This document shows, piece by piece, positions 39,811 through 64,000 of a stretch of 64,000 nt of DNA. How positions within the stretch are numbered: the stretch's first letter is position 1; the number at the start of each line of letters is the position of its first letter. Source of the DNA: Arbacia lixula (Eukaryota > Echinodermata > Echinoidea > Arbacioida > Arbaciidae); the NCBI GenBank assembly GCA_963669155.1, contig CAVLGW020000025.1, positions 61,001 through 125,000 of the forward strand, given 5' to 3'. Made by a program: the position numbers and the translations under genes. The notes below the pieces were generated by a model. The model made no database searches and was not told the origin of the DNA. It saw only the letters and a program-made list of their open reading frames with translations.

Positions 39811-40180
39811 CTAATTTACTGAAACCAAAAAAAACGAGACATACTTGTGGACAAGTATCAGGTGGTCTGCATTGGCAAATTCATGCAGAGACATGGGCTG
39901 GAAAATGCACGGTGAACTATAGACCTTCATTCGTGACACCAACTATCCATAAGCAATGTGAGACAGCGCTCAAGAAAGCTCATAGGGCACCTATTATACT
40001 AAAATTTCAGAGAATTTCCTAAATGGTAACATGTTAATGCTAACGTGATTAATAGTCATGTAAGAGAATGGGGCGAGAGAAAAAAGAATTGGAAAGAAAA
40101 TCTCAAAGAGAATGACAAAGTGAGGCATAGAACAGAAGAAGATGGCAAAATAAACATTGCAAAAGGAATGCAGAAGTTGA

Positions 40181-40259
40181 CCCTACCCACGCCAGGAATC
40201 GAACCGGGGGCCTCGAGATCTTAAAACGGCGCCTTACCTATTGAGCCACAAATCTTCCC
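40181..40259 (-). promoter_or_regulatory. tRNA-like segment with Pol III A and B boxes (unit 1)
   Basis: On the minus strand the segment reads TGGCTCAATAGG (A box, 40237-40248), TTTTAAG where an anticodon loop would be, then GGTTCGATTCC (perfect B box, 40195-40205). The spacing from A box to B box is that of a class I tRNA. The acceptor and anticodon stems do not pair well, so it is not a working tRNA gene. It is a tRNA-derived internal promoter of the kind that drives SINEs. Whether it is transcribed is unknown. Confidence 0.75.
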
Positions 40260-41049
40260 ATTCACTTAACACGTAATGCCCAGCAGGGGCTAGAATGATT
40301 AAGAAATCGATATTCAAGCTGAAATTTCACCATGATCCCCCCGACATCTGATTAAAAAATGGAGATGACGTTCCGGAAAGCTCGTAGACTCAGCTACAAC
40401 ATACTGAAATTTCAGAGTGAAAGCTTGACATATTAGTGAGATACATCTCCTAGAAGCTCGTCATGTCATTTCATAAATACCACTTCCATTGACATAACAC
40501 GGAAGTGCGATTTTGACATTCATGCGTATAATGAAATTTACACCGTGAAGACGTCATCAAAATGAAAAATGAAGGCAACTACTACTATGGAGCGAGGTCT
40601 CAGCTACAACATACTGAAATTTGGGAGAAAATTGACCATGAATTACTGAGATACACAAAAGCGGGTAAAAAAGTTCATGACGTCATACATGAAAAATCAT
40701 TTTTTCGATTCATATGGCAATATGATGACATCAACATAAATTTAAAAGGTAAATCGAACATTAAATCACATCTACATTTCCCACTCTTTTAGAATATTGA
40801 AAAAAAATTGGGAGTCACCGGCCATTCTGAAGAGCTATGGCCGATTGAAGGTAGTCATGTTTTTTGCAATATTTGCACACAAAAACGTATTGACGCACGC
40901 GCAGACTTTGAACTTTGACGCACCCGCACGACCTTGTTATTGCATGGAAATGGCTCAAAATGACAGGATGTGTTGTATGTAGTGTCAGTAACATGAATCC
41001 AGTAAAAAAACAGAATTTTGACGTTTTGTTCGCGTTACGCACGAAAAAA

Positions 41050-41192
41050 CGCGCGAACGCGCGCGCACGCGCGGAAATTTTTGAAATGCTAGAAATGGCC
41101 TGAAACATATGCAAAACAATTTTGAGTTGATTTGGAGCATTTCAAAATTTTGCGCGCGCGTTTTTGCACTAACGTACGCGTACGCGCGCGTT
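41050..41192. other. Alternating CG/CA tracts with Z-DNA potential (example from unit 1)
   Basis: Two blocks of alternating purine-pyrimidine (41050-41075 and 41150-41192) are rich in CGCGCG and CGTACG, against an AT-rich background. The second contains the palindrome CGTACGCGTACG. Both recur in every complete unit. B units have an even longer pure CG run of 7 to 8 dinucleotides. Confidence 0.7.
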
Positions 41193-41311
41193 TTTTTTCA
41201 ATGAAATTAATTAGCTACTCATTAATAATATGCATGTCAAATTTCATTACACAGAGATGACCAGTTCTAGAGCTACATGAGGTAATAGTTTTTCATTAAA
41301 CTGCTCGTAGA

Positions 41312-41330
41312 TGACGTCACGATGACGTCA
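41312..41330. promoter_or_regulatory. Paired CRE palindromes (example from unit 1)
   Basis: Two full TGACGTCA sites 11 bp apart. They recur in A and C units. In B units the second is replaced by TTACGTAA. A third TGACGTCA lies about 630 bp upstream in nearly all units. These are consensus sites for bZIP proteins (CREB/ATF; TTACGTAA for PAR/E4BP4). Function in the array is not shown. Confidence 0.55.
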
Positions 41331-41457
41331 TGACCTTGAAAATGTTGCTGTAACATGTTCACATATATGTTCATACATGATGAACATTTCATGAAATATG
41401 GCCCATGCATTGTTGAGATATCCATGTCACAAAAATTTGGAATAAAAATAAATAAAT

Positions 41458-43021
41458 AACGAGACATACTTGTGGACAAGTATCAGGTGGTCTGCATTGG
41501 CAAATTCATGCACAGACATGGGCTGGAAAATGCACGGTGAACTATAGACCTTCATTCGTGACACCAACTATCCATAAGCAATGTGAGACAGCGCTCAAGA
41601 AAGCTCATAGGGCACCTATTATACTAAAATTTCAGAGAATTTCCTAAATGGTAACATGTTTATGCTAACGTGATTAATAGTCATGTAAGAGAATGGGGTG
41701 AGAGAAAAAAGAATTGCAAAGAAAATCTCAAAGAGAATGACAAAGTGAGGCATAGAACAGAAGAAGATGGCAAAATAAACATTGCAAAAGGAATGCAAAA
41801 GTTCACCCTACCCACGCCAGGAATCGAACCGGGGGCCTCGAGATCTTAAAACGGCGCCTTACCTATTGAGCCACAAATCTTCCCATTCACTTAACACGTA
41901 ATGCCCAGCAGGGGCTAGAATGATTAAGAAATCGATATTCAAGCTGAAATTTCACCATGATCCCGACATCTGATTAAAAAATGGAGACAACGTCCCGGAA
42001 AGCTCGTAGACTCAGCTACAACATACTGAAATTTCAGAGTGAAAGCTTGACATATTAGTGAGATACATCTCCTAGAAGCTCGTCATGTCATTTCATAAAT
42101 ACCACTTCCATTGACATAACACGGAAGTGCGATTTTGACATTCATGCGTATAATGAAATTTACACCGTGAAGACGTCATCAAAATGAAAAATGAAGGCAA
42201 CTCCTACTATAGAGCGAGGTCTCAGCTACAACATACTGAAATTTGGGAGAAAATTGACCATGAATTACTGAGATACACAAAAGCGGGTAAAAAAGTTCAT
42301 GACGTCATACATGAAAAATCATTTTTTCGATTCATATGGCAATATGCAGCATCTACAGTTCCCACTCTTTCAAAATATGAAAAAAAAATTGGGGGTCACC
42401 AGCCATTCTAAGGAGCTATGGCCGATTGAATGTGGTCATGTTTTTGCACACAAAAACGTATTGACGCACGCGCGGACTTTGAACTTTGACGCACCCGCAC
42501 GACCTTATTATTGCATAGAAATGGCTCAAAATTTCAGGATGTGTTGTTTGCAGTGTCAGAAACATGAATCCAGTGAAAAAACGGTTTTCTGACGTTGCGT
42601 TTGCTAAACGCACGGAAAAACGCGCGCGCGCGCGCGTACGCGCGGAAATTTGAAAAATGCTAGAAATGGCCTCAAACATATGCAAAACAATTTCTAGTTG
42701 ATTTGGAGCATTTTTTTATTTTACGCGCGCGTTAATGCACTAACGTACGCGTACGCGCGCGTTTTTTTTCATTGAAATTAATTGTCTTGTCATTAATAAT
42801 ATACATGCCAAATTTCATTACACAGAAATGAACGGTTTTAGAGCTACATGAAATAATAGATTTTCATTAAATTGCTCGTGCATGACGTCACGATTACGTA
42901 ATGACCTTGAAAATGTTCCTGTGACATGTTCACATATATACCTATACATGATGAACATTTGATGAAACATGGTCCATGCATTGTTGAGATATCCATGTCA
43001 CAAAAAATAGGAATAAAAATA
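41458..43021 (+). repeat. Array unit 2 (A/B chimera)
   Basis: A-type up to about 42345, B-type afterwards. At the switch about 55 bp present in both parents are missing (GCAATATG runs directly into CAGCATCTACAG). Length 1564 bp. Confidence 0.88.
41806..41884 (-). promoter_or_regulatory. tRNA-like segment, unit 2
   Basis: A-type, both boxes intact. Confidence 0.72.
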
Positions 43022-44694
43022 AACGAGACATACTTGTGGACAAGTATAAGGTGGTCTGCATTGACAAATTCATGCACTGACATGGGCTAGAAAATGCACG
43101 GACCTTCAATCGTGACACCATCTATTCATAAGCAATCAGAGACTCCGCTCAAGAAAGCTCAGAGCGCACCTACAATGTCTACTAACGTACATTTCAGAGA
43201 CATGCCTAAATGGTTACATGTATATTGTGCTAACATGTAATTAATAGCCACGTAAGATAAAGGGGCGAGAGAAAACGAATGGGAAAGAAAATCTCAAAGA
43301 GAATGACAAAGTGAGGGATAGAACAGAAGAAGATGGCAAAAAAACATTGTAAAAGGAATGCAAAAATATACCCTACCCACTCCAGGAGGCCTCGAGATCT
43401 TATAACGCGGCGCCTTACCAATTGAGCCACACATCTTCCCATTCACTTAACACGTAATGCCCAGCAGATTAAGAAATTGATATTCAAGATGAAATTTCGC
43501 CATGATCGCGACATCTGATTAAAAAATAAAGATCACGTCCCCGAAAGCTAATAGACTCAGCTACAACATACCAAAATTTCAGAGTAACAGAATTGAACAT
43601 AAGCGAGATACAGTTCCTAGAAGATCGTCATGTCATTTAATAAATACCCCTTCCATTGACATAACACGTACATACGATCGATTTTGACATTAATGTCTAT
43701 AATCAAATTTATACCATGAAGATGGAATCCTATTGAAATACTAGGGCTTATTTCTCATAGAGCAATGTCTCAGCTATCACATACTGAAATTTGGAACAAA
43801 ATTGACCAAAGATTACTGAGATACGCAAGAACGGGTAAAAAAGTTTATGACGTCATACATGAAAATTTATTTTTTCGATTCATATGGCAATATGATGACG
43901 TTACGATGTATTTAACGACCAAATGATACATGAAATAGCATTTACAGTTCCCACTCTTTCAAAATATGAAAAAAAAATTGGGGGTCACCAGCCATTCTGA
44001 GGAGCTATGGCCGATTGAAGGTGGTCATGTTTTTTGCAATATTTGCACACAAAAACGTATTGACGCACGCGCGGACTTTGAACTTTGACGCACCAGCACG
44101 ACCTTATTATTGCATGGAAATGGCTCAAAATTTCAGGATGTGTTGTTTGCAGTGTCAGAAACATGAATCCAGTGAAAAAACGGTTTTCCGACGTTGCGTT
44201 TGCTAAACGCACGGAAAAACGCGCGCGCGCGCGCGTACGCGCGGAAATTTGAAAAATGCTAGAAATGGCATCAAACATATGCAAAACCATTTCTAGTTGA
44301 TTTGGAGCATTTTTTTATTTTACGCGCGCGTTAATGCACTAACGTACGCGTACGCGCGCGTTTTTTTTCATTGAAATTAATTGTCTTGTCATTAATTATA
44401 TACATGCCAAATTTCATTACACAGAGATGAACGGTTTTAGAGCTACATGAAATAATAGATTTTCATTAAATTGCCCGTGCATGACGTCACGATTACGTAA
44501 TGACCTTGAAAATGTTCCTGTGACATGTTCACATATATACCTATACATGATGAACATTTAATGAAACATGGTCCATGCATTGTTGACATATCCATGTCAC
44601 AAAAAATAGGAATAAAAATAAATAATAATAATAATAAAGAAAGAAAATTCGGACAAAAACAAGAGGTGATCTGCCATGGCATGGCAGACCACCT
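43022..44694 (+). repeat. Array unit 3 (B)
   Basis: 1673 bp, ends with a B hairpin module (44664-44694) joined directly to the next unit. The tRNA-like B box is deleted here. The most divergent of the ordinary B units. Confidence 0.9.
43371..43440 (-). promoter_or_regulatory. tRNA-like segment, unit 3, B box deleted
   Basis: The A box is kept, but about 12 bp including the core of the B box are missing (TCCAGGAGGCCTCGAG). Not expected to bind TFIIIC. Confidence 0.7.
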
Positions 44695-46321
44695 AACGAG
44701 ACATACTTGTGGACAAGTATAAGGTGGTCTGCATTGGCAAATTCATGCACTGACATGGGCTAGAAAATGCACGGTGATATGGACCTTCAATCGTGACACC
44801 ATCTATTCATAAGCAATCAGAGACTCCGCTCAAGAAAGCTCAGAGCGCACCTACAATGTCTACTAACGTACATTTCAGAGACATGCCTAAATGGTTACAT
44901 GTACATTGTGCTAACATGTAATTAATAGCCACGTAAGATAAAGGGGCGAGAGAAAACGAATGGGAAAGAAAATCTCAAAGAGAAAGACAAAGTGAGGGAT
45001 AGAACAGAAGAAGATGGCAAAAGAAACTTTGTAAAAGGAATGCGAAAATTTACCCTACCCACTCCAGGAATCGAACCGGGGGCCTCGAGATCTTAAAACG
45101 CGGCGCCTTACCAATTGAGCCACACATCTTCCCATTCACTTAACACGTAATGCCCAGCAGGGGCTAGAATGATTAAGAAATTGATATTCAAGATGAAATT
45201 TCGCCATGATCGCGACATCTGATTGAAAAATAAAGATGACGTCCCCGAAAGCTAGTAGACTCAGCTACAACATACTAAAATTTCAGAGTAACAGAATTGA
45301 ACATAAGCGAGATACAGCTCCTAGAAGATCGTCATGTCATTTAATAAATACCCCTTCCATTGACATAACACGTACTTACGATCGATTTTGACATTAATGT
45401 CTATAATCAAATTCATACCATGAAGATAGAATCCTATTAAAATATTAGGGCTACTTTCTCATAGAGCAATGTCTCAGCTATCACATACTGAAATTTGGAA
45501 CAAAATTGACCAAAGATTACTGAGATACGCAAGAACGGGTAAAAAAGTTTATGACGTCATACATGAAAATTGATTTTTTTCGATTCATATGGCAATATGA
45601 TGACGTTACGATGTATTTAACGACCAAATGATACATGAAATAGCATCTACATTTCCCACTCTTTCAAAATATGAAAAAAAAATTGGGGGTCACCAGCCAT
45701 TCTGAGGAGCTATGGCCGATTGAAGGTGGTCATGTTTTTGCACACAAAAACGTATTGACGCACGCGCGGACTTTGAACTTTGACGCACCAGCACGACCTT
45801 ATTATTGCATAGAAATGGCTCAAAATTTCAGGATGTGTTGTTTGCAGTGTCAGAAACATGAATCCAGTGAAAAAACGGTTTTCCGACGTTGCGTTTGCTT
45901 AACGCACGGAAAAACGCGCGCGCGCGCGCGTACGCGCGGAAATTTGAAAAATGCTAGAAATGGCCTCAAACATATGCAAAACAATTTCTAGTTGATTTGG
46001 AGCATTTTTTTATTTTACGCGCGCGTTAATGCACTAACGTACGCGTACGCGCGCGTTGTTTTTCATTGAAATTAATTGTCTTGTCATTAATTATATACAT
46101 GCCAAATTTCATTACACAGAGATGAACGGTTTTAGAGCTACATGAAATAATAGATTTTCATTAAATTGCTCGTGCATGACGTCACGATTACGTAATGACC
46201 TTGAAAATCTTCCTGTAACATGTTCACATATATACCTATACATGATGAACATTTGATGAAGCATGGTCCATGCATTGTTGAGATATCCATGTCACAAAAA
46301 ATAGGAATAAAAATAAATAAT
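44695..46321 (+). repeat. Array unit 4 (B)
   Basis: 1627 bp, no hairpin module, ends in AAATAATAA. Confidence 0.9.
45053..45133 (-). promoter_or_regulatory. tRNA-like segment, unit 4
   Basis: B-type, A box TGGCTCAATTGG, two bases longer between the boxes than the A-type. Confidence 0.72.
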
Positions 46322-47953
46322 AACGAGACATACTTGTGGACAAGTATAAGGTGGTCTGCATTGGCAAATTCATGCACTGACATGGGCTAGAAAATGCACG
46401 GTGATATGGACCTTCAATCGTGACACCATCTATTCATAAGCAATCAGAGACTCCGCTCAAGAAAGCTCATAGCGCACCTACAATGTCTGCTAACGTACAT
46501 TTCAGAGACATGCCTAAATGGTTACATGTATATTGTGCTAACATGTAATTAATAGCCACGTGAGATAAAGGGGCGAGAGAAAAGGAATGGGAAAGAAAAT
46601 CTCAAAGAGAAAGACAAAGTGAGGGATAGAACAGAAGAAGATGGCAAAAGAAACATTGTAAAAGGAATGCGAAAATTTACCCTACCCACTCCAGGGATCG
46701 AACCGGGGGCCTCGAGATCTTAAAACGCGGCGCCTTACCAATTGAGCCACACATCTTCCCATTCACTTAACACGTAATGCCCAGCAGGGGCTAGAATGAT
46801 TAAGAAATTGATATTCAAGATGAAATTTCGCCATGATCGCGACATCTGATTAAAAAATAAAGATGACGTCCCCGAAAGCTAGTAGACTCAGCTACAACAT
46901 ACTAAAATTTCAGAGTAACAGAATTGAACATAAGCGAGATACAGCTCCTAGAAGATCGTCATGTCATTTAATAAATACCCCTTCCATTGACATAACACGT
47001 ACTTATGATCGATTTTGACATTAATATCTATAATCAAATTCATACCATGAAGATAGAATCCTATTGAAATATTAGGGCTACTTTCTCATAGAGCAATGTC
47101 TCAGCAATCACATACTGAAATTTGGAACAAAATTGACCAAAGATTACTGAGATACGCAAGAACGGGTAAAAAAGTTTATGACGTCATACATGAAAATTGA
47201 TTTTTTCGATTCATATGGCAATATGATCACGTTACGATGTATTTAACGACCAAATGATACATGAAATAGCATCTACAGATCCCACTCTTTCAAAATATGA
47301 AAAAAAAATTGGGGGTCACCAGCCATTCTGAGGAGCTATGGCAGATTGAAGGTGGTCATGTTTTTGCACACAAAAACGTATTGACGCACGCGCGGACTTT
47401 GAACTTTGACGCACCAGCACGACCTTATTATTGCATGGAAATGGCTCAAAATTTCAGGATGTGTTGTTTGCAGTGTCAGAAACATGAATCCAGTGAAAAA
47501 ACGGTTTTCCGACGTTGCGTTTGCTAAACGCACGGAAAAACGCGCGCGCGCGCGCGTACGCGCGGAAATTTGAAAAATGCTAGAAATGGCCTCAAACATA
47601 TGCAAAACAATTTCTAGTTGATTTGGAGCATTTTTTTATTTTACGCGCGCGTTAATGCACTAACGTACGCGTACGCGCGCGTTTTTTTTCATTGAAATTA
47701 ATTGTCTTGTCATTAATTATATACATGCCAAATTTCATTACACAGAGATGAACGGTTTTAGAGCTACATGAAATAATAGATTTTCATTAAATTGCTCGTG
47801 CATGACGTCACGATTACGTAATGACCTTGAAAATGTTCCTGTGACATGTTCACATACATACCTATACATGATGAACATTTGATGAAACATGGTCAATGCA
47901 TTGTTGAGATATCCATGTCACAAAAAATAGGAATAAAAATAAATAATAATAAT
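46322..47953 (+). repeat. Array unit 5 (B)
   Basis: 1632 bp, no hairpin module, ends in five AAT repeats. Confidence 0.9.
46680..46760 (-). promoter_or_regulatory. tRNA-like segment, unit 5
   Basis: B-type; the last base of the B box is changed (GGTTCGATCCC). Confidence 0.7.
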
Positions 47954-48301
47954 AACGAGACATACTTGTGGACAAGTATCAGGTGGTCTGCATTGGCAAA
48001 TTCATGCACAGACATGGGCTGGAAAATGCACGGTGAACTATAGACCTTCATTCGTGACACCATCTATCCATAAGCAATGTGAGACAGCGCTCAAGAAAGC
48101 TCATAGGGCACCTATTATACTAAAATTTCAGAGAATTTCCTAAATGGTAACATGTTTATGCTAACGTGATTAATAGTCATGTAAGAGAATGGGGTGAGAG
48201 AAAAAAGAATTGGAAAGAAAATCTCAAAGAGAATGACAAAGTGAGGCATAGAACAGAAGAAGATGGCAAAATAAACATTGCAAAAGGAATGCAAAAGTTG
48301 A

Positions 48302-48380
48302 CCCTACCCACGCCAGGAATCGAACCGGGGGCCTCGAGATCTTAAAACGGCGCCTTACCTATTGAGCCACAAATCTTCCC
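48302..48380 (-). promoter_or_regulatory. tRNA-like segment, unit 6
   Basis: A-type, both boxes intact. Confidence 0.72.
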
Positions 48381-49610
48381 ATTCACTTAACACGTAATGC
48401 CCAGCAGGGGCTAGAATGATTAAGAAATCGATATTCAAGCTGAAATTTCACCATGATCCCGACATCTGATTAAAAAATGGAGACAACGTTCCGGAAAGCT
48501 CGTAGACTCAGCTACAACATACTGAAATTTCAGAGTGAAAGCTTGACATATTAGTGAGATACATCTCCTAGAAGCTCGTCATGTCATTTCATAAATACCA
48601 CTTCCATTGACATAACACGGAAGTGCGATTTTGACATTCATGCGTATAATGAAATTTACACCGTGAAGACGTCATCAAAATGAAAAATGAAGGCAACTCC
48701 TACTATGGAGCGAGGTCTCAGCTACAACATACTGAAATTTGGGAGAAAATTGACCATGAATTACTGAGATACACAAAAGCGGGTAAAAAAGTTCATGACG
48801 TCATACATGAAAAATCATTTTTTCGATTCATATGGCAATATGATGACATCAACATAAATTTAAAAGGTAAATCGAACATTAAATCACATCTACATTTCCC
48901 ACTCTTTCAGAATATTGAAAAAAAATTTGGGGTCACCGGCCATTCTGAAGAGCTATGGCCGATTGAAGGTAGTCATGTTTTTTGCAATATTTGCACACAA
49001 AAACGTATTGACGCACGCGCAGACTTTGAACTTTGACGCACCCGCACGACCTTGTTATTGCATGGAAATGGCTCAAAATGACAGGATGTGTTGTATGTAG
49101 TGTCAGTAACATGAATCCAGTAAAAAAACAGAATTTTGACGTTTTGTTCGCGTTACGCACGAAAAAACGCGCGAACGCGCGCGCACGCGCGGAAATTTTT
49201 GAAATGCTAGAAATGGCCTGAAACATATGCAAAACAATTTTGAGTTGATTTGGAGCATTTTAAAATTTTGCGCGCGCGTTTTTGCACTAACGTACGCGTA
49301 CGCGCGCGTTTTTTTTCAATAAAATTACTTAGCTACTCATTAATTATATGCATGTCAAATTTCATTACACAGAGATGACCAGTTCTATAGCTACATGAGG
49401 TAATAGTTTTTCATTAAACTGCTCGTAGATGACGTCATGATGACGTCATGACCTTGAAAATGTTGCTGTAACATGTTCACATATATGTCCATACATGATG
49501 AACATTTCATGAAATATGGCCCATGCATTGTTGAGATATCCATGTCACAAAAATTTGGAATAAAAATAAATAAATAAATAATAAAGAAAGAAAATTCTAA
49601 CGAAATTAAG

Positions 49611-49723
49611 AGGTGATCTGTCGTTGGCGACAGACCACCTAATAATAATAATAATAATAATAATAAAGAAAGAAAATTCGGACAAAAACAAGAGGTGATC
49701 TGCCATGGCATGGCAGACCACCT
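49611..49723. repeat. Hairpin modules of types A and B side by side (unit 6)
   Basis: Each module begins AATAAAGAAAGAAAATTC and ends in a stem starting AGGTGATCTG and closing CAGACCACCT. The A hairpin has inner stem TCG/CGA and loop TTGG; the B hairpin has inner stem CCATG/CATGG. Both have the same A-to-C mismatch at the sixth pair. Similar modules lie at 44664-44694, 51394-51424, 54718-54748, 59366-59395, 59448-59478, 61149-61179 and 62846-62875. Confidence 0.85.
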
Positions 49724-49726
49724 AAT

Positions 49727-51433: not shown

Positions 51434-53054
51434 AACGAGACATACTTGTGGACAAGTATAAGGTGGTCTGCATTGGCAAATTCATGCACTGACATGGGCT
51501 AGAAAATGCACGGTGATATGGACCTTCAATCGTGACACCATCTATTCATAAGCAATCAGAGACTCCGCTCAAGAAAGCTCATAGCGCACCTACAATGTCT
51601 ACTAACGTACATTTCAGAGACATGCCTAAATGGTTACATGTATATTGTGCTAACATGTAATTAATAGCCACGTAAGATAAAGGGGCGAGAGAAAACGAAT
51701 GGGAAAGAAAATCTCAAAGAGAAAGACAAAGTGAGGAATAGAACAGAAGAAGATGGCAAAAGAAACATTGTAAAAGGAAAGCGAAAATTTACCCTACCCA
51801 CTCCAGGAATCGAACCGGGGGCCTCGAGATCTTAAAACGCGGCGCCTTACCAATTGAGCCACACATCTTCCCATTCACTTAACACGTAATGCCCAGCAGG
51901 GGCTAGAATGATTAAGAAATTGATATTCAAGATGAAATTTCGCCATGATCGCGACATCTGATTAAAAAATAAAGATGACGTCCCCGAAAGCTAGTAGACT
52001 CAGCTACAACATACTAAAATTTCAGAGTAACAGAATTGAACATAAGCGAGATACAGCTCCTAGAAGATCGTCATGTCATTTAATAAATACCCCTTCCATT
52101 GACATAACACGTACTTACGATCGATTTTGACATTAATGTCTATAATCAAATTCATACCATGAAGATAGAATCCTATTGAAATATTAGGGCTACTTTCTCA
52201 TAGAGCAATGTCTCAGCTATCACATACTGAAATTTGGAACAAAATTGACCAAAGATTACTGAGATACGCAAGAACGGGTAAAAAAGTTTATGACGTCATA
52301 CATGAAAATTGATTTTTTTCGATTCATATGGCAATATGATGACGTTACGATGTATTTAACGACCAAATGATACATGAAATAGCATCTACAGTTCCCACTC
52401 TTTCAAAATATGAAAAAAAAATTGGGGGTCACCAGCCATTCTGAGGAGCTATGGCCGATTGAACGTGGTCATGTTTTTGCACACAAAAACGTATTGACGC
52501 ACACGCGGACTTTGAACTTTGACGCACCCGCACGACCTTATTATTGCATAGAAATGGCTCAAAATTTCAGGATGTGTTGTTTGCAGTGTCAGAAACATGA
52601 ATCCAGTGAAAAAACGGTTTTCCGACGTTGCGTTTGCTAAACGCACGGAAAAACGCGCGCGCGCGCGCGTACGCGCGGAAATTTAAAAAATGCTAGAAAT
52701 GGCATCAAACATATGCAAAACAATTTCTAGTTGATTTGGAGCATTTTTTTATTTTACGCGCGCGTTAATGCACTAACGTACGCGTACGCGCGCGTTTTTT
52801 TTCATTGAAATTAATTGTCTTGTCATTAATTATATACATGCCAAATTTCATTACACAGAGATGAACGGTTTTAGAGCTACATGAGATAATCGATTTTCAT
52901 TAAATTGCTCGTGCATGACGTCACGATTACGTAATGACCTTGAAAATGTTGCTGGACCATGTTCACATATATACCTATACATGATAAACATTTGATGAAA
53001 CATGGTCCATGCATTGTTGAGATATCCATGTCACAAAAAATAGGAATAAAAATA
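51434..53054 (+). repeat. Array unit 8 (B)
   Basis: 1621 bp. A near-copy of unit 7 without the hairpin module. Confidence 0.9.
51792..51872 (-). promoter_or_regulatory. tRNA-like segment, unit 8
   Basis: B-type, both boxes intact. Confidence 0.72.
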
Positions 53055-54754
53055 AACGAGACATACTTGTGGACAAGTATAAGGTGGTCTGCATTGGCAA
53101 ATTCATGCACTGACATGGGCTAGAAAATGCACGGTGATATGGACCTTCAATCGTGACACCATCTATTCATAAGCAATCAGAGACTCCGCTCAAGAAAGCT
53201 CATAGCGCACCTACAATGTCTACTAACGTACATTTCAGAGACATGCCTAAATGGTTACATGTATATTGTGCTAACATGTAATTAATAGCCACGTAAGATA
53301 AAGGGGCGAGAGAAGACGAATGGGAAAGAAAATCTCAAAGAGAAAGACAAAGTGAGGGATAGAACAGAAGAAGATGGCAAAAGAAACATTGTAAAAGGAA
53401 TGCGAAAATTTACCCTACCCACTCCAGGAATCGAACCGGGGGCCTCGAGATCTTAAAACGCGGCGCCTTACCAATTGAGCCACACATCTTCCCATTCACT
53501 TAACACGTAATGCCCAGCAGGGGCTAGAATGATTAAGAAATTGATATTCAAGATGAAATTTCGCCATGATCGCGACATCTGATTAAAAAATAAAGATGAC
53601 GCCCCCGAAAGCTAGTAGACTCAGCTACAACATACTAAAATTTCAGAGTAACAGAATTGAACATAAGCGAGATACAGCTCCTAGAAGATCGTCATGTCAT
53701 TTAATAAATACCCCTTCCATTGACATAACACGTACTTACGATCGATTTTGACATTAATGTCTATAATCAAATTCATACCATGAAGATAGAATCCTATTGA
53801 AATATTAGGGCTACTTTCTCATAGAGCAATGTCTCAGCTATCACATACTGAAATTTGGAACAAAATTGACCAAAGATTACTGAGATACGCAAGAACGGGT
53901 AAAAAAGTTTATGACGTCATACATGAAAATTGATTTTTTCGATTCATATGGCAATATGATGACGTTACGATGTATTTAACGACCAAATGATACATGAAAT
54001 AGCATCTACAGTTCCCACTCTTTCAAAATATGAAAAAAAAATTGGGGGTCACCAGCCATTCTGAGGAGCTATGGCCGATTGAAGGTGGTCATGTCTTTGC
54101 ACACAAAAACGTATTGACGCACGCGCGGACTTTGAAATTTGACGCACCCGCACGACCTTATTATTGCATAGAAATGGCTCAAAATTTCAGGATGTGTTGT
54201 TTGCAGTGTCAGAAACATGAATCCAGTGAAAAAACGGTTTTCCGACGTTGCGTTTGCTAAACGCACGGAAAAACGCGCGCGCGCGCGCGTACGCGCGGAA
54301 ATTTGAAAAATGCTAGAAATGGCATCAAACATATGCAAAACCATTTCTAGTTGATTTGGAGCATTTTTTTATTTTACGCGCGCGTTAATGCACTAACGTA
54401 CGCGTACGCGCGCGTTTTTTTTCATTGAAATTAATTGTCTTGTCATTAATTATATACATGCCAAATTTCATTACACAGAGATGAACGGTTTTAGAGCTAC
54501 ATGAAATAATAGATTTTCATTAAATTGCTCGTGCATGACGTCACCATTACGTAATGACCTTGAAAATGTTCCTGTGACATGTTCACATATATACCTATAC
54601 ATGATGAACATTTGATGAAACATGGTCCATGCATTGTTGAGATATCCATGTCACAAAAAATAGGAATAAAAATAAATAATAATAATAATAAAGAAAGAAA
54701 ATTCGGACAAAAACAAGAGGTGATCTGCCATGGCATGGCAGACCACCTAATAAT
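53055..54754 (+). repeat. Array unit 9 (B)
   Basis: 1700 bp, B hairpin at 54718-54748. Lacks the private variants of units 7 and 8. Confidence 0.9.
53413..53493 (-). promoter_or_regulatory. tRNA-like segment, unit 9
   Basis: B-type, both boxes intact. Confidence 0.72.
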
Positions 54755-56081
54755 AACGAGACATACTTGTGGACAAGTATAAGGTGGTCTGCATTGGCAA
54801 ATTCATGCACTGGCATGGGCTGGTAAATGAACGTTCTTAAAACATCGCCTTACCCAATGAGCCACAAATCTTCGCATTCACTTTTCACGTAATGCCCACT
54901 AGCAGTGGCTAGAATGATTTAGAAATCGATATTCAAGCTGAAATGTTGCCATGATCCCGATATCTAATGAAAAAATGGAGAACACATGGCCGAAAGCTAC
55001 TAGATTCAGCTACAACATATTAAAATTTCAGAGTAAAAGATTGTAACATAGGAAAAGATATAGCTCCTGAAAGAGTGCCATGTCATTTCATGATTTCAAA
55101 TAAATGACCCTCCCATTGACATTACACGTAAAAACGTCTGATTCTGACATTAATGCCTATAATCATATTTTAACCTTGAAGACGTTAACAAATTGAAAAG
55201 TTAAGGCAAGCCTGCCATAGAGCAATGTCTAAGGCACAACATACTGAATTTTGGGAGAAAAATTTTAAAAGGAATACTGAGATATGAAAAAGCGGGTAAA
55301 AAAAATTATGACGTCATAATTGAAAATTCATTTTTTCGATTCATATGGCAATATGATGACGTCACCATGTACTTACCGGTAAAATGACACATGAAATGAC
55401 ATCTACATTTCATACTTTTTCCAAATATTAAAAAAAAAATGGGGGTCACCGGCCATTCTGAAGAGATATGGCCGATTGAGGGTAGTCATGTTTTTTGCAA
55501 TATTTGCACACAAAAACGTATTGACGCACGCGCAGACTTTCAACTTTGACGCACCCGCACGACCTTGTTATTGCATGGAAATTGCTCAAAATGACAGGAT
55601 GTGTTGTATGTAGTGTCAGTAACATGAATGCAGTAAAAAAACGGAATTTTGACGTTTTGTTCGCGTTACGCACGGAAAAACGCGCGAACGCGCGCGCACG
55701 CGCGGAAATTTTTGAAATGCTTGAAATTGCTTGAAACATATGCAAAACAATTTTGAGTTCATTTGGAGCATTTTAAAATTTTGCGCGCGCGTTTTTGCAC
55801 TAACGTACGCGTACGCGCGCGTTTTTATTTATTGAAATTAATTGTATTATTATTAAATTTATGCATGTCAATTTTCATTAGCTATAAATGATTGGTTCTA
55901 GAGCTACATGAGGTAATAGATTTTCATTAAACTGCTCGTAGATGACGTCACGATGACGTCATGACCTTGAAAATGTTGCTGGACCATGTTCCCATATATA
56001 CCTATACATGGTGAACATTTCATGAAACATGGTCCATGCATTGTTGAGATATCGATGCCACAAAAATTTGGAATAAAAATA
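54755..56081 (+). repeat. Array unit 10 (C, divergent)
   Basis: 1327 bp. It begins B-like, then loses about 300 bp including the tRNA-like B box. The rest differs from A and B throughout, but is A-like at the CG tract and the paired CREs. Probably the oldest unit. Confidence 0.88.
54836..54875 (-). promoter_or_regulatory. tRNA-like remnant, unit 10 (A box half only)
   Basis: Only the A-box half survives (TGGCTCATTGGG on the minus strand). The B box lies in the part deleted from this unit. Confidence 0.6.
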
Positions 56082-57708
56082 AACGAGACATACTTGTGGA
56101 CAAGTATAAGGTGGTCTGCATTGGCAAATTCATGCACTGACATGGGCTAGAAAATGCACGGTGATATGGACCTTCAATCGTGACACCATCTATTCATAAG
56201 CAATCAGAGACTCCGCTCAAGAAAGCTCAGAGCACACCTACAATGTCTACTAACGTACATTTCAGAGACATGCCTAAATGGTACATGTATATTGTGCTAA
56301 CATGTAATTAATAGCCACGTAAGATAAAGGGGCGAGAGAAAACGAATGGGAAAGAAAATCTCAAAGAGAAAGACAAAGTGAGGGATAGAACAGAAGAAGA
56401 TGGCAAAAGAAACATTGTAAAAGGAATGCGAAAATTTACCCTACCCACTCCAGGAATCGAACCGGGGGCCTCGAGATCTTAAAACGCGGCGCCTTACCAA
56501 TTGAGCCACACATCTTCCCATTCACTTAACACGTAATGCCCAGCAGGGGCTAGAATGATTAAGAAATTGATATTCAAGATGAAATTTCGCCATGATCGCG
56601 ACATCTGATTGAAAAATAAAGATGACGTCCCCGAAAGCTAGTAGACTCAGCTACAACATACTAAAATTTCAGAGTAACAGAATTGAACATAAGCGAGATA
56701 CAGCTCCTAGAAGATCGTCATGTCATTTAATAAATACCTCTTCCATTGACATAACACGTACTTACGATCGATTTTGACATTAATGTCTATAATCAAATTC
56801 ATACCATGAAGATAGAATCCTATTGAAATATTAGGGCTACTTTCTCATAGAGCAATGTCTCAGCTATCACATACTGAAATTTGGAACAAAATTGACCAAA
56901 GATTAATGAGATACGCAAGAACGGGTAAAAAAGTTTATGACGTAATACATGAAAATTGATTTTTTCGATTCATATGGCAATATGATGACGTTACGATGTA
57001 TTTAACGACCAAATGATACATGAAATAGCATCTACAGTTCCCACTCTTTCAAAATATGAAAAAAAAATTGGGGGTCACCAGCCATTCTGAGGAGCTATGG
57101 CCGATTGAAGGTGGTCATGTTTTTGCACACAAAAACGTATTGACGCACGCGCGGACTTTGAACTTTGACGCACCCGCACGACCTTATTATTGCATAGAAA
57201 TGGCTGAAAATTTCAGGATGTGTTGTTTGCAGTGTCAGAAACATGAATCCAGTGAAAAAACGGTTTTCCGACGTTGCGTTTGCTAAACGCACGGAAAAAC
57301 GCGCGCGCGCGCGCGTACGCGCGGAAATTTGAAAAATGCTAGAAATGGCCTCCAACATATGCAAAACAATTTCTAGTTGATTTGGAGCATTTTTTTATTT
57401 TACGCGCGCGTTAATGCACTAACGTACGCGTACGCGCGCGTTTTTTTCATTGAAATTAATTGTCTTGTCATTAATTATATACATGCCAAATTTCATTACA
57501 CAGAGATGAACGGTTTTAGAGCTACACGAGATAATAGATTTTCATTAAATTGCTCGTGCATGACGTCACGATTACGTAATGACCTTGAAAATGTTGCTGG
57601 ACCATGTTCACATATATACCTATACATGATGAACATTTCATGAAACATGGTCCATGCATTGTTGAGATATCCATGTCACAAAAAATAGGAATAAAAATAA
57701 ATAATAAT
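56082..57708 (+). repeat. Array unit 11 (B)
   Basis: 1627 bp, no hairpin module, ends in AAATAATAATAA. Confidence 0.9.
56439..56519 (-). promoter_or_regulatory. tRNA-like segment, unit 11
   Basis: B-type, both boxes intact. Confidence 0.72.
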
Positions 57709-59481
57709 AACGAGACATACTTGTGGACAAGTATCAGGTGGTCTGCATTGGCAAATTCATGCACAGACATGGGCTGGAAAATGCACGGTGAACTATAGAC
57801 CTTCATTCGTGACACCATCTATCCATAAGCAATGTGAGACAGCGCTCAAGAAAGCTCATAGGGCACCTATTATACTAAAATTTCAGAGAATTTCCTAAAT
57901 GGTAACATGTTTATGCTAACGTGATTAATAGTCATGTAAGAGAATGGGGTGAGAGAAAAAAGAATTGGAAAGAAAATCTCAAAGAGAATGACAAAGTGAG
58001 GCATAGAACAGAAGAAGATGGCAAAATAAACATTGCAAAAGGAATGCAAAAGTTGACCCTACCCACGCCAGGAATCGAACCGGGGGCCTCGAGATCTTAA
58101 AACGGCGCCTTACCTATTGAGCCACAAATCTTCCCATTCACTTAACACGTAATGCCCAGCAGGGGCTAGAATGATTAAGAAATCGATATTCAAGCTGAAA
58201 TTTCACCATGATCCCGACATCTGATTAAAAAATGGAGACAACGTTCCGGAAAGCTCGTAGACTCAGCTACAACATACTGAAATTTCAGAGTGAAAGCTTG
58301 ACATATTAGTGAGATACATCTCCTAGAAGCTCGTCATGTCATTTCATAAATACCACTTCCATTGACATAACACGGAAGTGCGATTTTGACATTCATGCGT
58401 ATAATGAAATTTACACCGTGAAGACGTCATCAAAATGAAAAATGAAGGCAACTCCTACTATGGAGCGAGGTCTCAGCTACAACATACTGAAATTTGGGAG
58501 AAAATTGACCATGAATTACTGAGATACACAAAAGCGGGTAAAAAAGTTCATGACGTCATACATGAAAAATCATTTTTTCGATTCATATGGCAATATGATG
58601 ACATCAACATAAATTTAAAAGGTAAATCGAACATTAAATCACATCTACATTTCCCACTCTTTCAGAATATTGAAAAAAAATTTGGGGTCACCGGCCATTC
58701 TGAAGAGCTATGGCCGATTGAAGGTAGTCATGTTTTTTGCAATATTTGCACACAAAAACGTATTGACGCACGCGCAGACTTTGAACTTTGACGCACCCGC
58801 ACGACCTTGTTATTGCATGGAAATGGCTCAAAATGACAGGATGTGTTGTATGTAGTGTCAGTAACATGAATCCAGTAAAAAAACAGAATTTTGACGTTTT
58901 GTTCGCGTTACGCACGAAAAAACGCGCGAACGCGCGCGCACGCGCGGAAATTTTTGAAATGCTAGAAATGGCCTGAAACATATGCAAAACAATTTTGAGT
59001 TGATTTGGAGCATTTTAAAATTTTGCGCGCGCGTTTTTGCACTAACGTACGCGTACGCGCGCGTTTTTTTTCAATAAAATTACTTAGCTACTCATTAATT
59101 ATATGCATGTCAAATTTCATTACACAGAGATGACCAGTTCTATAGCTACATGAGGTAATAGTTTTTCATTAAACTGCTCGTAGATGACGTCATGATGACG
59201 TCATGACCTTGAAAATGTTGCTGTAACATGTTCACATATATGTCCATACATGATGAACATTTCATGAAATATGGCCCATGCATTGTTGAGATATCCATGT
59301 CACAAAAATTTGGAATAAAAATAAATAAATAAATAATAAAGAAAGAAAATTCTAACGAAATTAAGAGGTGATCTGTCGTTGGCGACAGACCACCTAATAA
59401 TAATAATAATAATAATAATAAAGAAAGAAAATTCGGACAAAAACAAGAGGTGATCTGCCATGGCATGGCAGACCACCTAAT
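57709..59481 (+). repeat. Array unit 12 (A, two hairpin modules)
   Basis: 1773 bp, A hairpin 59366-59395 and B hairpin 59448-59478. Same length and layout as unit 6. Confidence 0.9.
58057..58135 (-). promoter_or_regulatory. tRNA-like segment, unit 12
   Basis: A-type, both boxes intact. Confidence 0.72.
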
Positions 59482-61185
59482 AACGAGACATACTTGTGGA
59501 CAAGTATAAGGTGGTCTGCATTGGCAAATTCATGCACTGACATGGGCTAGAAAATGCACGGTGATATGGACCTTCAATCGTGACACCATCTATTCATAAG
59601 CAATCAGAGACTCCGCTCAAGAAAGCTCATAGCGCACCTACAATGTCTACTAACGTACATTTCAGAGACATGCCTAAATGGTTACATGTATATTGTGCTA
59701 ACATGTAATTAATAGCCACGTAAGATAAAGGGGCGAGAGAAAACGAATGGGAAAGAAAATCTCAAAGAGAAAGACAAAGTGAGGAATAGAACAGAAGAAG
59801 ATGGCAAAAGAAACATTGTAAAAGGAAAGCGAAAATTTACCCTACCCACTCCAGGAATCGAACCGGGGGCCTCGAGATCTTAAAACGCGGCGCCTTACCA
59901 ATTGAGCCACACATCTTCCCATTCACTTAACACGTAATGCCCAGCAGGGGCTAGAATGATTAAGAAATTGATATTCAAGATGAAATTTCGCCATGATCGC
60001 GACATCTGATTAAAAAATAAAGATGACGTCCCCGAAAGCTAGTAGACTCAGCTACAACATACTAAAATTTCAGAGTAACAGAATTGAACATAAGCGAGAT
60101 ACAGCTCCTAGAAGATCGTCATGTCATTTAATAAATACCCCTTCCATTGACATAACACGTACTTACGATCGATTTTGACATTAATGTCTATAATCAAATT
60201 CATACCATGAAGATAGAATCCTATTGAAATATTAGGGCTACTTTCTCATAGAGCAATGTCTCAGCTATCACATACTGAAATTTGGAACAAAATTGACCAA
60301 AGATTACTGAGATACGCAAGAACGGGTAAAAAAGTTTATGACGTCATACATGAAAATTGATTTTTTTCGATTCATATGGCAATATGATGACGTTACGATG
60401 TATTTAACGACCAAATGATACATGAAATAGCATCTACAGTTCCCACTCTTTCAAAATATGAAAAAAAAATTGGGGGTCACCAGCCATTCTGAGGAGCTAT
60501 GGCCGATTGAACGTGGTCATGTTTTTGCACACAAAAACGTATTGACGCACACGCGGACTTTGAACTTTGACGCACCCGCACGACCTTATTATTGCATAGA
60601 AATGGCTCAAAATTTCAGGATGTGTTGTTTGCAGTGTCAGAAACATGAATCCAGTGAAAAAACGGTTTTCCGACGTTGCGTTTGCTAAACGCACGGAAAA
60701 ACGCGCGCGCGCGCGCGTACGCGCGGAAATTTAAAAAATGCTAGAAATGGCATCAAACATATGCAAAACAATTTCTAGTTGATTTGGAGCATTTTTTTAT
60801 TTTACGCGCGCGTTAATGCACTAACGTACGCGTACGCGCGCGTTTTTTTTCATTGAAATTAATTGTCTTGTCATTAATTATATACATGCCAAATTTCATT
60901 ACACAGAGATGAACGGTTTTAGAGCTACATGAGATAATCGATTTTCATTAAATTGCTCGTGCATGACGTCACGATTACGTAATGACCTTGAAAATGTTGC
61001 TGGACCATGTTCACATATATACCTATACATGATAAACATTTGATGAAACATGGTCCATGCATTGTTGAGATATCCATGTCACAAAAAATAGGAATAAAAA
61101 TAAATAATAATAATAATAATAAAGAAAGAAAATTCGGACAAAAACAAGAGGTGATCTGCCATGGCATGGCAGACCACCTAATAAT
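59482..61185 (+). repeat. Array unit 13 (B)
   Basis: 1704 bp, B hairpin 61149-61179. Matches unit 7 except for one AAT triplet at the end and few, if any, other changes. Confidence 0.9.
59840..59920 (-). promoter_or_regulatory. tRNA-like segment, unit 13
   Basis: B-type, both boxes intact. Confidence 0.72.
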
Positions 61186-62875
61186 AACGAGACATACTTG
61201 TGGACAAGTATCAGGTGGTCTGCATTGGCAAATTCATGCACAGACATGGGCTGGAAAATGCACGGTGAACTATAAACCTTCATTCGTGACACCAACTATC
61301 CATAAGCAATGTGAGACAGCGCTCAAGAAAGCTCATAGGGCACCTATTATACTAAAATTTCAGAGAATTTCCTAAATGGTAACATGTTTATGCTAACGTG
61401 ATTAATAGTCATGTAAGAGAATGGGGTGAGAGAAAAAAGAATTGGAAAGAAAATCTCAAAGAGAATGACAAAGTGAGGCATAGAACAGAAGAAGAAGATG
61501 GCAAAATAAACATTGCAAAAGGAATGCAAAAGTTGACCCTACCCACGCCAGGAATCGAACCGGGGGCCTCGAGATCTTAAAACGGCGCCTTACCTATTGA
61601 GCCACAAATCTTCCCATTCACTTAACACGTAATGCCCAGCAGGGGCTAGAATGATTAAGAAATCGATATTCAAGCTGAAATTTCACCATGATCCCGACAT
61701 CTGATTAAAAAATGGAGACAACGTTCCGGAAAGCTCGTAGACTCAGCTACAACATACTGAAATTTCAGAGTGAAAGCTTGACATATTAGTGAGATACATC
61801 TCCTAGAAGCTCGTCATGTCATTTCATAAATACCACTTCCATTGACATAACACGGAAGTGCGATTTTGACATTCATGCGTATAATGAAATTTACACCGTG
61901 AAGACGTCATCAAAATGAAAAATGAAGGCAACTCCTACTATGGAGCGAGGTCTCAGCTACAACATACTGAAATTTGGGAGAAAATTGACCATGAATTACT
62001 GAGATACACAAAAGCGGGTAAAAAAGTTCATGACGTCATACATGAAAAATCATTTTTTCGATTCATATGGCAATATGATGACATCAACATAAATTTAAAA
62101 GGTTAATCGAACATTAAATCACATCTACATTTCCCACTCTTTCAGAATATTGAAAAAAAATTGGGGGTCACCGGCCATTCTGAAGAGCTATGGCCGATTG
62201 AAGGTAGTCATGTTTTTTGCAATATTTGCACACAAAAACGTATTGACGCACGCGCAGACTTTGAACTTTGACGCACCCGCACGACCTTGTTATTGCATGG
62301 AAATGGCTCAAAATGACAGGATGTGTTGTATGTAGTGTCAGTAACATGAATCCAGTAAAAAAACAGAATTTTGACGTTTTGTTCGCGTTACGCACGAAAA
62401 AACGCGCGAACGCGCGCGCACGCCCGGAAATTTTTGAAATGCTAGAAATGGCGTGAAACATATGCAAAACAATTTTGAGTTGATTTGGAGCATTTTAAAA
62501 TTTTGCGCGCGCGTTTTTGCACTAACGTACGCGTACGCGCGCGTTTTTTTTCAATGAAATTAATTAGCTACTCATTAATAATATGCATGTCAAATTTCAT
62601 TACACAGAGATGACCAGTTCTAGAGCTACATGAGGTAATAGTTTTTCATTAAACTGCTCGTAGATGACGTCACGATGACGTCATGACCTTGAAAATGTTG
62701 CTGTAACATGTTCACATATATGTCCATACATGATGAACATTTCATGAAATATGGCCTATGCATTGTTGAGATATCCATGTCACAAAAATTTGGAATAAAA
62801 ATAAATAAATAAATAATAAAGAAAGAAAATTCTAACGAAATTAAGAGGTGATCTGTCGTTGGCGACAGACCACCT
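61186..62875 (+). repeat. Array unit 14 (A)
   Basis: 1690 bp, A hairpin 62846-62875 joined directly to unit 15. Confidence 0.9.
61537..61615 (-). promoter_or_regulatory. tRNA-like segment, unit 14
   Basis: A-type, both boxes intact. Confidence 0.72.
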
Positions 62876-64000
62876 AACGAGACATACTTGTGGACAAGTA
62901 TCAGGTGGTCTGCATTGGCAAATTCATGCACAGACATGGGCTGGAAAATGCACGGTGAACTATAGACCTTCATTCGTGACACCAACTATCCATAAGCAAT
63001 GTGAGACAGCGCTCAAGAAAGCTCATAGGGCACCTATTATACTAAAATTTCAGAGAATTTCCTAAATGGTAACATGTTTATGCTAACGTGATTAATAGTC
63101 ATGTAAGAGAATGGGGTGAGAGAAAAAAGAATTGGAAAGAAAATCTCAAAGAGAATGACAAAGTGAGGCATAGAACAGAAGGAGATGGCAAAATAAACAT
63201 TGCAAAAGGAATGCAAAAGTTGACCCTACCCACGCCAGGAATCGAACCGGGGGCCTCGAGATCTTAAAACGGCGCCTTACCTATTGAGCCACAAATCTTC
63301 CCATTCACTTAACACGTAATGCCCAGCAGGGGCTAGAATGATTAAGAAATCGATATTCAAGCTGAAATTTCACCATGATCCCGACATCTGATTCAAAAAT
63401 GGAGACAACGTTCCGGAAAGCTCGTAGACTCAGCTACAACATACTGAAATTTCAGAGTGAAAGCTTGACATATTAGTGAGATACATCTCCTAGAAGCTCG
63501 TCATGTCATTTCATAAATACCACTTCCATTGACATAACACGGAAGTGCGATTTTGACATTCATGCGTATAATGAAATTTACACCGTGAAGACGTCATCAA
63601 AATGAAAAATGAAGGCAACTCCTACTATGGAGCGAGGTCTCAGCTACAACATACTGAAATTTGGGAGAAAATTGACCATGAATTACTGAGATACACAAAA
63701 GCGGGTAAAAAAGTTCATGACGTCATACATGAAAAATCATTTTTTCGATTCATATGGCAATATGATGACATCAACATAAATTTAAAAGGTAAATCGAACA
63801 TTAAATCACATCTACATTTCCCACTCTTTCAGAATATTGAAAAAAAATTGGGGGTCACCGGCCATTCTGAAGAGCTATGGCCGATTGAAGGTAGTCATGT
63901 TTTTTGCAATATTTGCACACAAAAACGTATTGACGCACGCGCAGACTTTAAACTTTGACGCACCCGCACGACCTTGTTATTGCATGGAAATGGCTCAAAA
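62876..64000 (+). repeat. Array unit 15 (A), cut by window edge
   Basis: 1125 bp visible. The array continues beyond the window. Confidence 0.9.
63223..63302 (-). promoter_or_regulatory. tRNA-like segment, unit 15
   Basis: A-type, both boxes intact. Confidence 0.72.

Follow-up and report, generated by a model that had tools for sequence, protein, structure and literature searches.

A tandem array with tRNA-like boxes in Arbacia lixula is very probably a pile of non-autonomous, apparently self-stacking Helitron2/Helentron-group elements

Introduction

A long tandem array in which nearly every unit carries an internal promoter of RNA polymerase III (Pol III) raises the question of what has been multiplied, and of whether the promoter is the cause of the array or its passenger. 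Such an array fills the right-hand part of the stretch analysed here (the window), which comprises 64,000 nucleotides of the sea urchin Arbacia lixula (assembly GCA_963669155.1, contig CAVLGW020000025.1, positions 61,001 to 125,000, forward strand). An initial annotation, made from the letters alone, had described units of about 1.6 kb, most of them with a tRNA-derived promoter, and had suggested that they could yield long Pol III transcripts, act as boundary sites bound by TFIIIC, or be a sequence bearing a short interspersed element (SINE) that was amplified in tandem. We find that each ~1.65-kb unit is very probably a non-autonomous rolling-circle transposon of the Helitron2/Helentron (HLE2) group, with its sense on the minus strand, and that these transposons appear to have piled up as a self-stacking array. 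Statements about published systems, here and below, draw on excerpts of the papers cited.

The array and its ends

The tandem array described initially was borne out. Fifteen units (U01 to U15) follow one another head to tail at 39836..64000, starting 6 bp from the position first given, and the array reaches the end of the window, where contig C47 ends as well. The units measure 1564-1773 bp, apart from one unit of 1327 bp and the last unit, which is cut at 1122 bp. Two subfamilies, 86-87% alike, account for most of the array: subfamily A comprises U01, U06, U12, U14, and U15, and subfamily B comprises U03-U05, U07-U09, U11, and U13. U02 is a chimera of A and B, and U10 is a mosaic belonging to a third lineage. 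Several adjacent units differ in subfamily, while U07, U08, and U13 are identical across 1627 bp and the pair U06-U07 recurs as U12-U13 over 3488 bp with 0 mismatches.

Read on the minus strand, the element consists of a 5' hairpin, a pyrimidine-rich stretch, an (ATT)n tract, a body of ~1.5 kb, GCAGACCACCT, 2 nt, the hairpin TACTTGTCCACAAGTA, and TGTCTCGTT. This is the order known from Helitron2, in which a 5' asymmetric terminal inverted repeat (5'-ATIR) forms a hairpin at the 5' end, the 3'-ATIR lies 20-30 bp from the 3' end with a hairpin directly after it, and compensatory changes are found (PMC3627910). In units that keep their 5' end, T or ATT is followed by AGGTGGTCTG(C/T)C, whose bases form a 13-14 bp stem with the adjacent downstream sequence, a hairpin of the 5'-ATIR type; this module is missing at 7 of the 14 junctions in the window. 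At the other end, the 3'-ATIR GCAGACCACCT is followed by 2 nt, a 16-nt palindrome, and 9 nt, which places it 27 bp from the CTCGTT end. In U06, for example, the 3'-ATIR lies at 47981..47991, the 3'-terminal hairpin at 47963..47978, and a 5' hairpin module of type b at 49611..49640, all on the minus strand.

The two ends are complementary to each other over 11 bp where the 5' end is of type a and over 10 bp where it is of type b. Between the two hairpin types we found two compensatory pair changes (C-G to T-A and A-T to G-C), so that pairs 1-13 can form in both. The 5' arm makes one G-T wobble with its own hairpin partner and none with the 3' inverted repeat over the 11 (a) or 10 (b) bases. When the ends of one type-a copy were shuffled 5000 times, an inverted repeat of 11 was reached twice, a 14-bp 5' stem once, a 9-bp 3' stem 51 times, and all three together never. 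DNA folding of the 5' end gave z values of -8.8 and -6.0. The 3'-terminal 23 nt do not vary among the 15 units. Variation as low as that of the first 36 columns at the 3' end occurs in 4 of 1566 windows of that comparison when U10 is included and in 55 of 1566 when it is not; conservation of the 3' end is thus only moderate, the lower figure being flattered by the U10 deletion. Within the element there are also degenerate internal repeats of ~210 bp.

Other classes of element were considered. A canonical Helitron1 has 5'-TC ... CTRR-3' ends and inserts between A and T; the ends here are AGGTGG...CTCGTT, and this assignment was rejected. A hammerhead retrozyme or Penelope reading was dropped because no ribozyme family was among the ten Rfam matches with E<=5 in 10.8 kb (39000-49800).

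Copies elsewhere in the genome

The window's own genome (607 Mb in 590 contigs, denoted C) was searched with exact motifs of the element. An exact 35-mer of the 3' end occurs 1767 times, and its reversed control 0 times. The first 100 of these 3' ends, located on C1 and part of C2, comprise 64 in tandem (a same-strand neighbour within 2.5 kb), 30 solo, and 6 others, with a median spacing between neighbours of 1629 bp; 'solo' means that no other listed exact 3' end lies within 50 kb, a definition that diverged neighbours would escape. The initial annotation had proposed looking for single, non-tandem copies, and they exist: besides these 30 of 100 solo ends, two complete solo copies were read, L003 on C12 and L005 on C5, both with the structure flank|AGGTGG ... 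CTCGTT|flank and hence with the same ends as the array units. At a third locus, L004 on C8, the 5' end reads T5|AGGTGG and a second unit follows behind it. The flanks of L003, L005, and the array edge are T-rich, and no flush target duplication was seen by eye at any of the three. Exact fusions of a 3' end to a 5' end number 148 genome-wide, two of which, U03/U04 and U14/U15, are in the window. Exact-motif scans of viral contigs and of prokaryote genome contigs, and a blastn comparison with phage records, gave no match.

A probable Rep-helicase partner

Two open frames of the array gave no match in a Pfam search. Helitron_like_N has 43 matches in the genome, 29 of them in open frames of 3190-3346 aa, of which 16 have exactly 3278 aa. 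PIF1 matches number 44, and many of them lie next to the Helitron_like_N set in frames of equal lengths. In two pieces of such a frame on C3, Pfam placed OTU, Herpes_teg_N (a Pfam name only), DUF6570, and Helitron_like_N above the cut-off, and PHD below it. The assignment is made at group level (Helitron2/Helentron); the hallmark of Helentron proper would be an apurinic-like endonuclease domain in the Rep-helicase protein.

Some of these frames are located among the arrays. On C3, C15, and C23, a Rep match stands between exact array junctions or units, at distances of some tens of kb and on the same strand. At the C3 locus, the left flank resembles the unit at 73-82% over short stretches, and the right flank matches unit positions 680-1632 at 93%, with the next unit directly after it. 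The left-flank sequence was followed to 36 places (from 75 rows, those starting at query position 30 plus the query's own place; four weak rows were set aside, as were those that matched the query's second half), 32 of which have a same-strand Rep match within 40 kb on the expected side, 14 at 11,850-11,915 bp and the rest at 7,977-27,606 bp. For the right flank, 24 of 28 places (from 104 rows, those covering query 2-695 plus the query's own place) have such a match, 15 at 10,121-10,139 bp and the rest at 8,608-38,172 bp. The distances recur, and the flanks therefore travel with the Rep frame in many copies. Beside the same left-flank sequence, C48 carries a diverged end, GACAGACCACCT-CA-TACTTGTACACAAGTA-TCTCTCGTT, which follows the plan of the units and includes a degenerate tRNA-like part (L012). 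Of the flank loci, C48 alone yielded a 3' end that matches, and this contig stops before any Rep match. The Rep frame is antisense to the element ends, as in some Helitron2 elements (PMC3627910). By adding distances across different loci, we infer a Rep-helicase element ~25 kb long. Elements of this kind, with a ~3278-aa Rep-helicase and sequence shared with the units near both ends, most likely moved the units in this genome.

A second Rep-helicase family is apparently present at C13:4818393 and C10:13436979, in frames of 1308 and 1570 aa (Helitron_like_N 192 bits, PIF1 225 bits).

Proposed nesting and stacking of copies

How such elements could come to lie in tandem is suggested by U06. This complete subfamily A copy (47957..49640) has its own type-b 5' hairpin and lies within the (ATT)n tract of a B-type copy: on the minus strand, a type-a hairpin module (49693..49723), which we read as that of the host copy U05, and (ATT)n stand upstream of it, and downstream (ATT)n leads into the hairpin-less B body of U05 (46325..47956). 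When the flanks of U06 are joined, they equal the four intact B 5' ends, apart from an ATT tract longer by 15-18 nt and a difference of one base close to the edge (two against U03). U06 and both halves of its host match by subtype.

We propose that T-rich sites would be the targets of new copies. Most insertions would fall in the (ATT)n tract directly behind an older copy's 5' hairpin, and a minority flush with that copy's 5' end, and arrays would thus grow by nesting and stacking. Nesting would line up several 5' hairpins and leave some bodies without one, while the mean per junction would stay at one. Homologous exchange and block duplication would later homogenise the array.

The number of 5' hairpins per junction was counted in the window and 55 other loci, which together gave 73 distinct 3' ends at least 700 bp from the edge of their locus; 8 of these have no unit upstream, being an array edge or solo. 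At the remaining 65 junctions, hairpins number 0 at 34, 1 at 16, 2 at 8, 3 at 5, 4 at 1, and 7 at 1, amounting to 58 modules or a mean of 0.89; in the window there are 9 at 14 junctions. The junction with seven modules in a row, between two units, is at L006 (C3:20.396 Mb). The observed shares for 0, 1, 2, and at least 3 hairpins are 0.52, 0.25, 0.12, and 0.11. Pure nesting, simulated with 15 copies, gives 0.50, 0.17, 0.21, and 0.13 (p 0.18), and nesting with 10, 20, or 30% flush insertion also fits (p 0.33, 0.30, and 0.15). A plain geometric law (p=1/2) fits best, with p 0.97, and a Poisson law less well, with p 0.024.

A wider idea can be put forward only tentatively. The element may carry its own landing site, the (ATT)n behind the 5' hairpin, and so form arrays that assemble themselves by transposition with 3' ends kept, opposite in polarity to many plant Helitron arrays. 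An open Rep-helicase source would lie nearby, and the sense-strand Pol III promoter would help, perhaps through recruitment of TFIIIC or opening of the 3' end.

The units one by one

All units are read on the minus strand. U01 (39836..41460, subfamily A) forms the array edge, where its 3' end CTCGTT meets the non-array flank in a T run. It is followed by U02 (41461..43024), in which the switch between A and B falls within the unit, and by U03 (43025..44697, subfamily B), whose B box is deleted and whose type-a 5' hairpin module (44664..44694) is directly fused to the 3' end of U04. U04 (44698..46324) is a B unit without a 5' hairpin; U05, likewise of subfamily B, is the one whose body is parted by U06 from the type-a hairpin read as its own. 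Among the following B units, U07 (49730..51436) and U09 (53058..54757) have a 5' hairpin, and U08 (51437..53057) and U11 (56085..57711) do not. U10 (54758..56084), the diverged third lineage, has lost its B box through an internal deletion. U12, an A unit with two 5' hairpins, and U13, a B unit starting at 59485, together cover 57712..61188 and form the exact duplicate of U06-U07. U14 (61189..62878, subfamily A) has a type-b 5' hairpin (62846-62875) directly fused to the 3' end of U15, and U15 (62879..64000, subfamily A) is cut by the end of the window and contig.

The Pol III boxes

The presence of A and B boxes in 13 of the 15 units was confirmed, all on the minus strand and at the same place within the units. 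The pair of U06 lies at 48316..48369, and those of the other 12 units at 40195, 41820, 45067, 46694, 50099, 51806, 53427, 56453, 58071, 59854, 61551, and 63238. The exceptions are U03, which lacks the B box, and U10, which lost it in its deletion and retains a changed A box. The A box is on the sense strand of the element, 413-425 nt before its 3' end. The two-box pattern TGGCNNARNNGG-N22-50-GGTTCGANNCC has 13 matches in the 64 kb, compared with a mean of 0.00 in 100 shuffles. Because the units are related copies, this figure counts one origin many times: the 13 pairs are copies of one ancestral pair and not independent occurrences.

The description of the promoter as tRNA-derived holds in part. 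A tRNA origin is visible in the boxes, but the segment is degenerate: the tRNA model applied to the 121-bp stretch of one unit alone scored 13.1 bits against a cut-off of 29 bits. ARAGORN in bacterial mode found no tRNA, a search of the window against Rfam yielded no match that reached the gathering threshold, and the matches with E<=5 in 39000-49800 did not include a tRNA. Long Pol III transcripts are unlikely, as a run of four T (T4) starts 18-30 nt after the B box in all 13 units with both boxes; such runs can be leaky. Judged from the sequence, the boxes would give at most short Pol III transcripts or TFIIIC binding.

A B-box mutation rate equal to that of the flanks had been named in advance as a result that would speak against a role for the boxes, and here the outcome was mixed. 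Between the subfamilies, the B box has 0 substitutions in 11 positions, a value equalled by 483 of 1661 windows of 11 nt, and the A box has 1 in 12; the 57-nt tRNA-like stretch as a whole has 1 substitution, and only 50 of 1615 windows are as low. This stretch lies inside a longer stretch of low divergence, 152 columns in length. Within subfamily B, 1 of 59 sites of the tRNA-like stretch is polymorphic, compared with 52 of 1618 overall. The tRNA-like stretch is thus well conserved, but the boxes themselves do not stand out from it.

Genome-wide, an exact 34-nt block around the B box occurs 1051 times. It accompanies 43 of the first 100 exact 3' ends described above, namely 35 of 64 in tandem, 6 of 30 solo, and 2 of 6 others. 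In the same sample, 28 of the 37 full-length tandem units have the block, but none of the 12 short ones does, so it is unneeded for array growth. The figure of 43 in 100 is less biased than the presence of the B box in all 30 loci L046-L075, which were best hits to an A-type query. Conversely, 8 of 51 judgeable blocks (on C1, and on C2 as far as the 3'-end list extends) lack an exact 3' end beside them; a ninth, at C2:18770929, lies past the end of that list and is not judgeable. This count used 52 of the 100 listed blocks, the other 48 being on C2 beyond the 3'-end list or on C3. The boxes are common, inherited, and dispensable for spreading: they are an old internal passenger and not the cause of the array.

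In one run on C1 (27928097-27936055), seven exact 3' ends follow one another, with 3 of 6 spacings at 1.33-1.40 kb and no exact B-box block beside any of them; it perhaps belongs to the same deletion lineage as U10.

The proposal that a SINE-bearing sequence was amplified survives only in modified form. The tRNA-like head starts about where the ~210-bp internal repeats break off and may therefore be an old inserted or captured tRNA-derived piece, although what was amplified is the Helitron2-type element; no target duplication was seen by eye at this head. A tRNA-derived SINE as the amplified unit itself, which would have a tRNA head at its 5' end, a LINE-type tail, and target duplications, was rejected, as the tRNA-like part is internal and not at the unit's 5' end, with T4 directly downstream. 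First-look genome candidates, which are unconfirmed copies, number 1170 for the tRNA-like part and 1100 for the 3' end, and such similar counts give no sign of an abundant free SINE.

Sequence flanking the array

To the left of the array, Pfam identified exons encoding SRCR, EGF, and Ig domains. SRCR exons (19236-36198, minus strand; SRCR was named by Pfam for 19264-19647) are repeated at 88-93%: 35791-36198 resembles 20155-20541 and 27959-28342, 34390-34848 resembles 24910-25367 and 19236-19685, and 32642-33064 resembles 23729-24151. These repeats probably represent a recently expanded multi-SRCR gene. A ~0.7-kb element at 38540-39250 has foldback arms of ~200 bp and inverted relatives at 25442-26047 (84%) and 27366-27964 (81%). 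Nearest to the array, a 23-bp direct repeat (95.7%) is found at 39561-39583 and 39807-39829, its right copy ending 6 nt before the array edge. Other tandem repeats lie at 28973-30105 (359 bp x 3.1) and 7-413 (144 bp x 2.8), and a weak reverse-transcriptase fragment at 8956-9567 on the minus strand (RVT_1, E 0.0079, below the cut-off).

Discussion

Our results identify the units, with high probability, as Helitron2/Helentron-group elements that stacked on one another; several points weigh against this reading. The end stretches used in the shuffling test were picked after having been seen, and folding of the 3' end is weak (z -1.1 and -1.7). Some whole-unit matches elsewhere begin only at unit position 384-519, so that deletions of the 3' part occur in the genome, and the 3' part is not always beside the body. 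Of the places that carry the flank sequences, 22 of 36 (left) and 13 of 28 (right) are off the commonest distance or have no Rep match within 40 kb; the two ends of the Rep-helicase element were taken from different loci (C48 and C3), and the C3 copy has no recognisable 3' terminus. Models with half of the insertions flush (p 0.0005) or with insertion into any gap (p 0.0003) misfit the junction counts. Block duplications, of which U06-U07 and U12-U13 are an example, make the junctions dependent on one another, and the loci are best hits to subfamily-A queries. Finally, stacked and missing hairpins could equally come from recombination within (ATT)n or from a ~62-bp 5' module that was duplicated in tandem.

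This last point leads to an alternative that we regard as possible but not probable, in which the nested appearance arose by recombination or slippage between (ATT)n tracts and not by insertion. Tracts resembling (ATT)n are where the exact duplications break off and where the breaks at hairpin-less junctions lie, the 5' modules occur in runs of up to seven of nearly one type, and the tract in the joined U06 flanks is 15-18 nt longer than in the four intact copies; the geometric law, which a birth-death process could give, fits at least as well as nesting (p 0.97 against 0.15-0.33). Set against this, 0.89 modules per junction is what nesting predicts without tuning, gain and loss of the Poisson type fits less well (p 0.024), and the subtype match between U06 and the halves of its host speaks for insertion. 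It is rather improbable that a circular or long single-strand multimer, produced by rolling-circle read-through, was inserted as a ready-made array, even though the 148 exact fusions would suit such a process and a bypassed end signal has been given as the cause of the tandem Helitrons of bats and silk moth (PMC4067079). Read-through multimers are also the mechanism proposed for centromeric Helitrons of plants, many of whose arrays have several 5' ends and one 3' end (PMC12628747); read-through fits worse here because each of the 15 units keeps its 3' end. What varies is the 5' hairpin, absent at some junctions and stacked at others, and several neighbouring units are of different subfamilies, so they did not come from one multimer.

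The two remaining explanations start from the promoter or from the tandem order itself. If the Pol III boxes were functional, as a TFIIIC boundary or through a transcript, they might explain why the array is retained, and their integrity in 13 of 15 units, the low divergence of the 152-column stretch and its 57-nt part, the 1051 exact blocks, and the degenerate version at C48, by which the segment is old, would be in keeping with this. We nevertheless consider such a role quite doubtful on what the sequence offers: the boxes do not stand out within their stretch, T4 lies directly downstream, and in the sample from C1 and part of C2 all 12 short tandem units and 24 of 30 solo ends lack the exact block. 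Least probable is an ordinary satellite, in which a SINE-containing sequence went tandem once and grew by unequal crossing-over only. The head-to-tail order, the chimeric U02, the mosaic U10, and the recent block duplication would all be expected of it, and the tRNA-like head near the internal-repeat break and the 8 of 51 B-box blocks without an exact 3' end are compatible with it. However, the 30 solo ends and the two complete solo copies already weaken this explanation, the unit ends are Helitron2 signals, Rep-helicase frames have unit-like flanks, and the candidate counts, unconfirmed as they are, show no sign of an abundant free SINE.

If the stacking of transposon copies is accepted, the passage from transposon to satellite is legible at the junctions, from the solo copy through exact end-to-end fusion and nesting to stacked 5' modules, exchange, and block duplication. 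The 16 open Rep-helicase frames of equal length, several of them on array contigs, suggest that the process may be recent, and the origin of Helitron arrays by read-through, nesting, or recombination could therefore be tested directly in this animal. The locus also illustrates how inheritance by itself can place a pair of Pol III boxes in almost all units of an array.

Tandem units with a tRNA-like segment have precedents. Amphibian repeats of this type are known (PMC10702118, PMC9659126), which weakens the initial claim that such promoters are rare in satellite-like units. Newt PolIII/TAN, Xenopus OAX/satellite I, Rana/polIII, and Hydromantes Hy/polIII consist, as here, of tandem units with a tRNA-like segment, which has been questioned for Hydromantes (PMC10702118); where a length is stated, these units measure 200-360 nt, and none is described in the excerpts of that paper as a Helitron. 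Among the literature matches listed, we recognised no Helitron or Helentron with a Pol III promoter.

The likeness to Helitron2 extends over the ATIR and hairpin plan, the compensatory hairpin changes, an apparently T-rich target, and, for some members, a Rep-helicase antisense to the ends (PMC3627910). HINEs are built on a similar plan that includes internal repeats and, on the left, a microsatellite (PMC4067079, PMC7492417), and the HINE/DINE-1 elements share with the units an 11-12 bp subTIR and its complementary inverted repeat, the left-module microsatellite, a 3' subTIR with a palindrome, internal repeats, and probably a Rep-helicase partner, whereas here the whole element is in tandem and not the central repeats only. 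Whole elements are likewise arranged head to tail in the tandem Helitrons of plants, bats, and fungi (PMC12628747, PMC4067079, PMC5148889). In Fusarium, Helitrons have multiple 5' termini, tentatively ascribed to self-insertion, which the seven-module run at L006 resembles (PMC5148889). In contrast to many plant arrays, with their single 3' end, the array in the window has a 3' end in each of its 15 units and a variable 5' hairpin, and, in comparison with the Helitron2 group, its units carry a tRNA-like promoter segment and form long arrays with stacked 5' modules. What is unusual about this system is its polarity, with 3' ends kept and 5' hairpins stacked or lost, together with the proposed landing tract within the element, the open Rep-helicase frames that lie amid the arrays, and a tRNA-like passenger.

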